Of a stretch of DNA of 64,000 bases, positions 25,755-30,500 are shown one piece after another. This DNA is from Methanococcoides orientis (GTDB taxonomy: Archaea > Halobacteriota > Methanosarcinia > Methanosarcinales > Methanosarcinaceae): positions 1,622,685-1,686,684 of the forward strand of contig NZ_CP073710.1 in NCBI RefSeq assembly GCF_021184045.1, in the 5' to 3' direction. Below the pieces are notes generated by a model. The model was not told the DNA's origin. It saw only the letters and a list, made by a program, of their open reading frames with translations, and did no database searches. Both the position numbers and the translations under genes were made by a program. Numbering within the stretch: the first letter of the stretch is position 1; every line of letters begins with the position of its first letter.

Positions 25755-26816
25755 TCACAACTCCACATCCGCAGCAACCATAACCTCGCTACTCTTCTTC
25801 ACTGCCACAACCTCAACCTCTCCCTCACCAGCATCCCCGACCACACCCACATGTTCAGGATTAGGACGAGCGAACGAAGGCCTTTGGGCGATCATGTGAA
25901 TGGATCTTGCGATGGAGTGCAGGATAATCCCTGTGAATGACATGAAAGTACCTATGATCATCAACATTACCATTAATATCGTTGGACCGAAAGGAAGATT
26001 TCCGCCCATGGAGAAGGAATACATGAACTTTATTCCGAAATACAGGCCTGTTACACCCATTGCCATTCCGGGGATTGTGAAGTAGTAGAGGGGTTTGTTG
26101 AACTCCATATCCCTTAGGATCCTTACGAGGACTCCTATGCCGTGTTTTAGGGGATGTTCAGTGGAGCAGTCCACGTCGTAGCGGACGTCTATGTCCACTT
26201 CGGTTATTCGCAGGCCTGCATTGGAGGCGTCTGCGAGCATCTCGCTTTCTATGGCGAGGTTGGCGGCCTTGAAGCGGAAGACATCGTATGTGTGGCCTGA
26301 GAAGGCACGGAAACCGCACTGGGTGTCGGTGATATCTATTCCGCTGTTGAGCTTGGTGGCCTGGTCGAGCACTGTCTGGCCGACCCTTCGGTATGAGGGG
26401 GTGTCGGTCTCCTTGCCGTGCAGATATCTGCTGCCGTTTACCATATCGGCCTGGTTGGAGAGGATGGGGGCTACGAGGATGGGGATCTGCTTGGGGTCGT
26501 GCTGGCCGTCGGTGTCCAGGGTCACGATGACGCGGGAGTTCTTTGCGGCGTCGAAGCCTGTTCGAAGGGCTGCACCTTTGCCCCTGTTCTGGGGGTGTAT
26601 GATTACCCTTGCGCCGGCCATTTCAGCGATCTTCGCAGTGCTGTCACTGCTGCCGTCGTCTACCACGATCACCTCGTCAACATAGTGTCTTGTGAGGAGC
26701 ACCACACTCCCTATGGAAACACCCTCGTTGAACGCAGGCAGTACAGCGGTTATCCCTGTCCTGTTGTAACAGCTATAATCCTATTCTTCCTGAACGGACT
26801 CACTATTTTCACTCAT
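25755..26816 (-). CDS. GT2 glycosyltransferase, frame joined to its start through an in-frame TAG
   Basis: The enzyme has VLPAFNEGVSIGSV, EVIVVDDGSSDSTAKIAEMAG, the DTDGQHD metal motif and TQCGFRAFSG, as in polyprenyl-phosphate sugar transferases. Two C-terminal membrane helices follow (about YYFTIPGMAMGVTGLYFGI and FGPTILMVMLMIIG). Without readthrough, the only start is GTG at 26705, which removes the PAFNEG strand needed for the fold. Reading back in frame gives ITAVLPAFNEG, then TAG at 26781-26783, then ten codons (SENSESVQEE) and ATG at 26814-26816. AGGGTGG stands six bases before that ATG. Pyrrolysine insertion, or an early nonsense mutation, are the two readings. Confidence 0.7.
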
Positions 26817-27104
26817 ACTATCCACCCTAAGAATACTAAACACAACAAAGTAGTACCCTATGCGAAGTGCAGCATATGAGAACATATTATATATATATTA
26901 GCATTTCCAATAATACTTTCCTAGAAAACTCCAAAAAGTTGATGTTACCTGACAAGGATTTTAGCCAGCTCCACTTTTAATTATGTATTTCATAAATACG
27001 TATTATCACGTGTTCCAAAAAAGCAGACCATTCGGGAAAATAAAAAACTGACATCTGTCGATGTTTTAAAAATAGCCTTAATTAACGACCCAACGGAGAT
27101 ATCG

Positions 27105-27260: not shown

Positions 27261-27548
27261 TTTCCAGCTTCTGGTTGAATTCCTGTTCAGCTACAGAGAA
27301 AAGTGGCGCTGTAAGATATATTTTCTTACTTGCCCATTTTATCTCCTTTGTCTTAATTCTACCCTCTACTAATGTAAGTTAAGATACGTAATCATTCCAG
27401 AGATGTATCATTTTTGATATTGCCTAAATATTTTACAATTTCGCTTTTAATAGCAACTATTAATAACAAAGAAAACATCTAATGAACAAAAATATAAAAG
27501 ATTGTATAGTTCCCTGAGTTTTCCAGTAATTCAAATAAAATTAATCAG
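27261..27548. other. non-coding A/T-rich DNA before the giant surface protein gene
   Basis: About 290 bases without a convincing gene. The only recognisable element is a TATA-like AAATATAAAAG at 27490-27500 on the plus strand, about 95 bases before the surface protein start. Transcription would then begin near 27525 and the leader would include the TCAA repeat. Confidence 0.4.
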
Positions 27549-27582
<34 letters not shown>

Positions 27583-27592
27583 TGGTGATGTA

Positions 27593-30500
27593 ATGTTCAA
27601 ATCAATGGTCAGATGTATTTTATTTTTATCTGTGATAATTACTTTGATGTGCTTCCTAACAGCTTCTGCAGGTGCTATGAACGATGAGTTCATAATGCAG
27701 GTAAGCATCGGGGAAACCAATGTAAGTTTTGCAGATCATACAAATTCCCTTACAGAAGGTAATTGGATAGGTTTAAGCGGCGGTTCATCATTCTCTTTAC
27801 CGTATCCGCTGACATTTACTTATAATGGTATTAATTCTAAAGAAATAACCACAAGCAGTAATGATGTTAGTGTATATTTGAACGTTGACAACTTTACTGA
27901 CCATGTTATTACTTATCCATATGATACTCACCAGATGTACACCAATGTTTCCGGCATGAACGATGTTACATTTGATTTCAAAGGTTCCTCGTATTTTGCT
28001 GGCGATACTGTGGATGTGTATCTTCTGGAAAGCAGCATCTCGGAACTTGAAATGAATGTGGATGTTCTGTATGATAAATTCTCCAACCCAACAGTCTCCT
28101 TTTCTGAGGAACTTAATGCAAATGGGGATCTTTCATATAATTTTGGCCCGCTGGATGCAGGCACCTATTGTATCGTACTTATGATCGCTGACGACATTAC
28201 CGAAGAGAACGTCCTGCTTTCATTTACTGCATTTGAGGTTCTTGATCACGATCTTGATGTAAGCATCTTAAAAGATGGTTCCACGCTTACTGTTAATAAC
28301 CATCTGTTAGGTGCTCCTTCAGGCAGTTACACATATAACACAATACTCGTAAAGGAAAGCGAATATGAGGCAGATGTCAGGGTAAACTTCAACGGTACAA
28401 CAGCAGGTCTTAACAGTTCCATTAACGGATATCCTATTCTCAGTGCAACCGACATAATGGATCTTGGTTTACCGACAATTGATACATCTTATGTCAATGA
28501 GAATATTGAAGGAATATTCAGCAGTGATGATTCTTTAGTAAATTCAACCCCTTCAACTTTGAACACTTCATCCACTGCTTTTGATACATTCCAGTTATCC
28601 TCCGGAAATTACCTAGTTATAACATATGCAATGTCCGGCGGAAACATTATGGGATTTGATGAGAAGATGGTAACCCTCTTCAATGAACATGTGGAACTTA
28701 CATCAGACAAGCTTTCAGAAACTGCAGAGAAGAATACAACAGTGGACTATGAGATCATTGTTTGGAACAAGAAGGACAATGCAAGGGATATTTCTCTAAG
28801 CCTGGTAGCTCCGGATGGCCTTATCACTGACCTTGGAACGAATTCCGTACCATTGGGTCCAAACAGTTCAACAACGGTCCCACTCTCTATTAGAAGTGAG
28901 GTCGTGGGTTCCCAGATCCCTGTGATAATTACAGCTTCCAGCGAGGATGATCATGACTCAATCACTTTGAAGACATCTTTCATTGACCCACTCGATGCAA
29001 GCGTTGATTCCACAAAGAAAGCAGTTCATACTAACAACGATGCTTCATATGTATTCAATGTTGAGAATGTTGGTGTTGTTGAGCATACTTTCATTATTAG
29101 TGCGACAAGCAATGCTGATGATAGTTTGAGTGTTACCTCATTGCCGGTACCTTCTGGAACTTCCAATTCATTCACTTATAATGTAAGCAGTGCTTCTACA
29201 GGCAAATATCCTTCCGAAATTCTCATTGAGGACTCTGTAGATTATTCAATATCAAGGACCTTCAATGTTGTAACTGATATATCACAGGAACCTGTGTATG
29301 ATGTATCTGTTTCCAGCGATATCAGCAGTTCATCCATAGAGGATGGTGAAGATGCTGTCTATAATATAACGATCACTAATACTGGTAACGTTGAGGATAC
29401 CTATGATATCATCTTGGTCAATCCAATGGCAGATAGTGCTGTTCTTGATGATGGTTCTGATGCATTACTACAACCCGGTGAGGCAGATGTAAGGAAACTT
29501 ACTGTATCCTCATCTCCTGGTACCTATGATGTAACCTTCATTGCCATGTCACAGAACTCTTCTGCAGTCTCGGTCAAGACCACTACAAAAGTTCTGGAGC
29601 GAGGGGTGATACTAACTTCTGATCTTTACAATAGTGTATCTACTCCATATGGTACTTTGAAATGTACCCTTACGGTGAAGAATACTGGTAATTCTGCAGA
29701 CAGCTTCACTATCAGTGCGATCTCAAATGGAACCACTGATATCACACCATTAAATATAGTTGATCTTGAAAGCGGAGCCAGTGAGAATATTGAAGTGACA
29801 CTCAACGGTGAAGATGTAGGTCTCTATAACTCCACCATTACTGTGGTGTCTGATAATGATGCCAGTGCTGAAAGTTCCGTGACACTCGACCTTCGTATAA
29901 TAGAAGAGCCAGTGTATGCTTTTGACCTGTCAATGGATTCATCATCAAAGACAATGGAAAGGACAGATGATGCGTACTTTATCCTTTCCATAAAGAATAC
30001 GGGTAACAGAGCTGATGATTACAACATCTCTTCTGTATCTCCTTATGTGAGTCTTGATAAAAACTCCCTCTTCCTGGAAGCAGGAGGGTCAGGAGACATT
30101 ATAATGGATGTTTCTGGCCTTCCTGACTATGATACTTACTCTATAAGGGTGGATGTAACTTCACAGGAGTCTTCAGAAACTATCGGTAAGGCACCTTCTA
30201 TAACAGTGGTTCCTGCCCTGTCGATAAGTGCAAACCCTGCTTCACAAACGGTTGGACTTGGTAATTCCTCCCTCTATAGGATAACTGTGACAAACACAGG
30301 TACCAATGTGCACGATTATGATCTTAGCATTGCACAGAGTTCATCAGATACAACTGCAGAACTTGTAACGTCAACTATAAACGATCTGGATGTTGGCGGA
30401 TCGGCTACGGTGGATATGATCTTTAACAGTACTATCTCTCAGGAGAGAAGTATCGAAGCACTTGTCAAAGCAGAAGTTTCTGACAGCCCGCTGAAGAACA

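Follow-up and report, generated by a model that had tools for sequence, protein, structure and literature searches.

What is made from a glycosyltransferase gene whose reading frame meets a stop codon at its twelfth position? The question is raised by a gene on the minus strand of the window, by which we mean the whole 64,000-nucleotide stretch of the genome of the methanogenic archaeon Methanococcoides orientis analysed here, and to which all positions refer unless a contig or locus is named. In the preliminary description, this surface-glycan gene of glycosyltransferase family 2 (GT2) was seen to reach its start codon only through an in-frame UAG, for which insertion of the 22nd amino acid, pyrrolysine (Pyl), a coupling of glycan assembly to the supply of Pyl through readthrough, and an early nonsense mutation were all considered. 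We have followed these possibilities through the genome of M. orientis itself (G000) and those of its relatives, among them M. seepicolus LLY (G009), M. vulcani SLH 33 (G003) and the genome G006.

Layout of the interrupted frame

As first described, the frame begins at ATG 26816-26814, continues through ten codons to TAG 26783-26781 and remains open as an unbroken GT2 frame to TGA 25757-25755. Its parts, from the upstream region onwards, are the following.

26892..26897, minus strand: TATA-box-like element (TATATA; TATATAATATG context), 76-81 bases 5' of the leader ATG
26822..26828, minus strand: Shine-Dalgarno-like AGGGTGG, from its computed duplex with the archaeal 16S 3' end
26814..26816, minus strand: ATG start codon, kept in M. 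orientis, M. vulcani, M. seepicolus and G006
26784..26816, minus strand: leader codons 1-11 (MSENSESVQEE), a Ser/Glu-rich N-terminal tail, of equal length and free of indels in three species
26781..26783, minus strand: in-frame TAG, codon 12, putative pyrrolysine, identical in M. orientis, M. seepicolus and M. vulcani
25755..26780, minus strand: GT2 frame 3' of the TAG, codons 13-353 and TGA stop, recognized by its PF00535 and 5mlz matches and its dN/dS
26669..26780, minus strand: stretch from the TAG to the first later starts (GTG 26705, GTG 26702) and just beyond, codons 13-37, with the first GT-A strand ITAVLPAFNEG inside

Each of the four genomes with this leader has the TATATA element, a putative promoter, 75-81 bases before the ATG, and its flanks are strongly conserved. 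The AGGGTGG motif (26828-26822) is present as previously reported, but its spacing to the ATG amounts to five bases instead of six. The computed duplex with the 16S 3' end has an energy of -7.3 kcal/mol in M. orientis, M. vulcani and G006, and of -6.7 kcal/mol in M. seepicolus.

Downstream of the TAG, GTG 26705 is the first ATG, GTG or TTG, and initiation there would cost the protein its first Rossmann strand (VLPAFNEG), both as originally noted. The absence of intervening start codons was discarded as stand-alone evidence, since in a 464-kb sample of the genome 24 of 230 frames of at least 200 codons behind TAA or TGA are likewise start-free for 25 codons. The observation is instead raised above chance by the conservation of the TAG in two congeners and the coding-type evolution directly 3' of it.

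The encoded glycosyltransferase

The frame matches PF00535 with an E-value of 7.3e-28 (98 bits against a cut-off of 23.3; profile positions 2-158 of 168). This match starts about ten residues after the TAG, and to include its first strand, translation has to cover the frame ahead of GTG 26705. The nearest relative of solved structure is the dolichol phosphate mannose synthase (DPMS) of P. furiosus (5mlz, 1.2e-10), and the best NCBIfam match is AglJ (TIGR04182); at 145.7 bits, below the 325 bits of the equivalog cut-off, assignment as AglJ was discarded. The gene product is predicted to be a membrane-associated GT2 of the polyprenyl-phosphate sugar transferase type (DPMS/AglJ-like). Its gene belongs to a surface-polysaccharide cluster that also encodes GT4 enzymes, a sugar epimerase, a polysaccharide pyruvyl transferase and a flippase. 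It shares the family 2 GT-A fold with the DPMS-like enzymes (5mlz; AglJ, TIGR04182), and two C-terminal membrane helices are likewise expected, while the UAG-containing tail sets it apart from them.

Among Methanosarcinaceae homologues, the N-terminal tails preceding the ITVILPAYNEE strand differ widely in length and sequence, and some proteins are nearly tail-less. As residue 12 falls within this variable tail, outside the fold, a catalytic role for it is unlikely. An AlphaFold model computed from three input sequences had a mean pLDDT of 34.7 and was set aside as not interpretable.

Conservation and selection on both sides of the UAG

Orthologues with the TAG occur in three of 11 Methanococcoides genomes, those of M. 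orientis, M. seepicolus (87% identity) and M. vulcani (83%). All three copies consist of ATG, ten codons, TAG and DYSCY(N/S)RTGITA(V/I)LPAFNEG, without indels in the 11-codon leader or beyond, and the UAG is present in 3/3 orthologues having this leader. Two patterns in relatives had been named as support for readthrough, a conserved UAG and, in relatives lacking pyl genes, a sense codon in its place. The former is what M. seepicolus and M. vulcani display; of the latter there was no instance among the orthologues found, those with the leader being confined to Pyl-encoding Methanococcoides. The M. seepicolus copy lies close to the end of a 17.6-kb contig, in a draft genome with an estimated contamination of 5%.

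With 12 of the 33 leader sites variable, the invariance of the TAG in three species is not significant by itself. The leader codons 1-11 are fast-evolving (dN about 0.35 between M. orientis and the other two), though a pattern M S x x S x S x Q is partly conserved across the three species; given this rate, the leader would by itself be weak evidence of a selected protein. The codons right after the TAG, by comparison, evolve as protein. In codons 13-37, the variable sites are distributed 1/1/8 over the three codon positions (8 of 10 at third positions, binomial p = 0.003) and dN is 0.02-0.04 against a dS of 0.2-0.7; even in codons 13-21 the distribution is 0/1/4 (4 of 5 at third positions, p = 0.045). 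Over codons 13-324, dN/dS among the three TAG-bearing copies is 0.11, 0.155 and 0.163, at a dS of up to 0.49. Translation should thus cross the TAG, and these substitutions indicate that the region directly 3' of it was subject to translation and selection from a time preceding the split of the three copies.

In-frame TAGs also occur in GT2 homologues of two other genera. One, in the Methanosarcina-type genome G099 (L104/L109), lies in the N-terminal tail of a gene with an ambiguous start, at a distance of six residues from the fold; relatives that are 75-79% identical do not have it. The other, in G054 (L100/L129), lies inside the fold and was seen in one genome only. As neither is at the UAG12 site and neither is conserved in the relatives examined, both were discarded as support.

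Pyrrolysine machinery and the use of TAG

The genome of M. orientis encodes the apparatus for reading UAG on which the original proposal depended: pylS (C1:2365194-2365910) and pylD (C1:2362255-2363028) were identified by profile matches above curated cut-offs, and a tRNA-Pyl with anticodon CTA (CUA) is located at C1:2366542-2366613 in the same locus. Positive controls are provided by the dimethylamine (MtbB) and trimethylamine (MttB) methyltransferases, which carry an in-frame TAG in the same genome. Terminator usage was assessed for ORFs of at least 100 amino acids in the 464-kb sample, which represents 19% of the genome. Here, TAG terminates 13 of 384 ORFs though it accounts for 18% of the stop trinucleotides (p about 4e-19), and part of these 13 are the first halves of TAG-containing genes; within the window, TAG ends none of 46 ORFs. 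A comparison of frames read through TAG, TGA and TAA at the level of ORFs is dominated by neighbouring genes and shadow frames and was set aside as uninformative. An archaeal "Pyl code", in which every TAG genome-wide stands for pyrrolysine, was reportedly described in 2025, and the 464-kb sample resembles what is said of it in that TAG terminators are rare and TAG-containing genes many.

Several further genes of the genus bear in-frame TAGs. An RNA ligase (TIGR01209; L073:18436-19614 = C1:2078436-2079614, minus strand) has one at codon 66, which is present in 9 of 11 species from both main clades and replaced by CAG and TGC in the remaining two, making this enzyme a strong candidate pyrrolysine protein. 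In an FrhB-like F420-dependent protein with a YHS domain (L056:17686-18858 = C1:17686-18858), codon 345 is TAG in 6 of 10 species, the other clade having TAT. The small subunit of DNA polymerase D (PolD; L073:5600-7330 = C1:2065600-2067330; L137, L139 and L140 in relatives) contains a TAG in 4 of 11 species, at two different places: in M. orientis only, it lies in a variable linker, where GAG, CAG, CCA, TCA or TTA are found elsewhere, while in G001, G005 and G008 it lies inside the conserved phosphoesterase domain (YFD-X-VPEHIKIIISPGNHD), with CAG in all others. Since truncation at the latter site would lose the active-site region, UAG must be sense there. Overall, Methanococcoides appears to treat TAG almost like any other sense codon.

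A replication protein requiring UAG as sense would make pyl essential, and the TAGs in GT2, PolD and the RNA ligase lead to the prediction that Methanococcoides should need its pyl genes in the absence of methylamines, too. For M. acetivorans, loss of pyl has been found to cost growth on methylamines only (PMC2933860). Pyl archaea at large use UAG both as sense and as stop, and M. acetivorans reads a foreign amber codon at 20-30% (PMC2933860).

Probable reading of UAG12 as pyrrolysine

Taken with the evolution of the codons behind it, these features make it very probable that UAG12 is read through with pyrrolysine, placed in the variable N-terminal tail. A ribosome starting at ATG 26816 would first make the 11-residue acidic and serine-rich tail; tRNA-Pyl(CUA), charged by PylRS, would then decode UAG12 and thereby insert pyrrolysine, and elongation would proceed through the full GT2 domain to TGA 25757. 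At UAG12, Pyl-tRNA and release factor would be in ordinary competition, without a cis element, and as TAG seems sense-like in the genus, UAG12 could become fixed without a dedicated recoding signal. In the three copies, RNA structure after the UAG does not go beyond that of shuffled sequences (z +0.41, -1.59 and -0.42) and the folds near the UAG differ; with no stable or conserved stem-loop 3' of the UAG, PYLIS-stimulated decoding was discarded. The identity of the inserted residue as pyrrolysine, the efficiency of insertion and the functional neutrality of the tail site are what we infer from this setting. Of the two forms in which readthrough had been proposed, insertion of Pyl near the N-terminus is upheld by the pyl genes, the UAG in two relatives and purifying selection; the other, a link of glycan assembly to Pyl supply, is not, for reasons given below.

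The UAG12 glycosyltransferase is a further case of a known type and not a new mechanism. Candidate UAG genes outside the methylamine methyltransferases have been described before, among them a CobN homologue (PMC1242214) and clusters of such genes (PMC3639795), and M. acetivorans Thg1 has an amber codon, which is non-essential (PMC2933860). With these non-methyltransferase UAG genes of Methanosarcinaceae (Thg1, transposases, a TetR regulator, the CobN homologue), the gene has in common an archaeal host that encodes Pyl, just one in-frame UAG, a frame conserved on both sides, no requirement for a recoding element and an apparently dispensable Pyl (PMC2933860, PMC3639795, PMC1242214). It differs from the Thg1-type genes in encoding a surface-glycan GT2 with the UAG at codon 12 of a variable tail, and in that the UAG is kept in three species and has apparently moved between lineages with the gene. 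MtmB, MtbB and MttB depend on the same PylS and tRNA-Pyl for decoding of their UAG; however, Pyl is a catalytic active-site residue in these methyltransferases, whereas in the GT2 its place would be in the tail that precedes the fold. The GT2 is a well-supported candidate for a pyrrolysine protein not involved in methylamine metabolism; its surface-glycan gene would be cut back to GTG 26705 by standard annotation or be labelled a pseudogene.

Alternative readings

Could UAG12 instead act as a switch? With Pyl-tRNA scarce, translation would stop after 11 residues, tying GT2 and the surface glycan to the supply of Pyl and with it to growth on methylamines. The UAG does come very early in the gene, is common to three species and travels with promoter and leader, and trimethylamine-dependent decoding has a precedent in the bacterium Acetohalobium, where UAG does not mean Pyl unless the cells are on trimethylamine (reviewed in PMC8211752). 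However, the RNA ligase, the PolD small subunit and the FrhB-like protein also have an in-frame TAG, so that the dependence would not be specific. Moreover, the TAG is no more conserved than the adjacent leader codons, the z-scores given above reveal no structure 3' of the UAG better than shuffles, and in G006 this promoter and leader precede a GT2 that lacks the TAG. We consider such a switch unlikely, and with TAG sense-like in unrelated genes, no conserved RNA structure and the TAG-free GT2 of G006, the proposed coupling of glycan assembly to Pyl supply finds no support. Quite improbable, too, is that UAG12 represents a selected gate, by which Pyl supply would set the amount of GT2 and which would spread among Methanococcoides as a module of promoter, leader and UAG; if it were true, the cell surface would vary with methylamine metabolism.

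The sole other reading with some basis takes the leader as a separate 11-codon peptide ending at the UAG, with GT2 initiating at a near-cognate codon, for instance the AUA of codon 22. The position of this AUA coincides precisely with the start of shorter homologues (MTHIAVILPAYNEE in L008), and G006 has the leader as a short ORF of its own (MSENSESVRGVV, TGA), directly after which GT2 has its own ATG. Yet codons 13-21, which would then lie outside the protein, are kept as protein (DYSCY(N/S)RTG), 4 of 5 changes falling on third positions, the 12-column gain over codon 22 resting on five substitutions (p = 0.045). The AUA is also without a suitably spaced Shine-Dalgarno sequence, the pairing being confined to sites that run up to the codon itself, at -4.6 to -5.5 kcal/mol, compared with -9.7 for the ATG of G006. 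Initiation at AUA is thus very unlikely.

That the TAG is a recent nonsense mutation, or the gene a decaying one, is scarcely credible. The lone TAG in the tail of the G099 homologue, in another genus and not kept in relatives 75-79% identical, may be decay and lends the idea some colour, but the TAG considered here predates the split of three species, the frame is intact with a dN/dS of 0.11-0.16 at a dS of up to 0.49, and promoter and Shine-Dalgarno sequence are retained. The early nonsense mutation once considered is unlikely on the strength of this dN/dS among the TAG-sharing species.

A start at GTG 26705 or 26702, the expected call of automatic annotation, would yield a protein without the first strand and can be dismissed almost entirely: a GGGAG motif does stand four bases 5' of GTG 26702, but 0 of 40+ homologues begin there, all retaining the (V/I)LPA(F/Y)NE strand, and codons 13-37, then untranslated, would have to account for a dN of 0.02-0.04 against a dS of 0.2-0.7.

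History of the gene and the sister locus in G006

How did a gene that is probably read through a UAG come to be shared by these three species? By PylS identity, M. orientis, M. vulcani, G006 and G004 group together (96-99%), with M. seepicolus in the other clade (84-85%). Contrary to this grouping, the dS of GT2 is smaller between M. seepicolus and M. vulcani (0.29) than between M. vulcani and M. orientis (0.48), and the three TAG-bearing copies have no neighbouring genes in common. The simplest reading would be that GT2 moved horizontally inside the genus together with its TAG, contamination of the M. seepicolus draft being the caveat. Every recipient within the genus would be able to decode UAG upon transfer.

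The genome G006, whose PylS is 99% identical, holds the equivalent of the M. orientis locus, with the same upstream neighbour, a 1,740-residue surface protein (88% identity). Its DNA is 91% identical through promoter, Shine-Dalgarno sequence, ATG and about eight codons, and then passes into a different GT2 (50% identity). Here, the leader ends in TGA, and the ATG of GT2 follows directly, with a strong Shine-Dalgarno sequence (-9.7; L010, G006:C14, about 496000-496100). Recombination within the leader has thus probably replaced the TAG allele of G006, and a TAG-free GT2 can take the place of the TAG gene.

The gene for the 1,740-residue surface protein in the window has a peculiarity of its own. 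About 11 tandem copies of AATC (27539-27581, plus strand) end 12 bases 5' of its ATG at 27593, and it is conceivable that the repeat forms a length-dependent, phase-variation-like switch of the expression of this protein.
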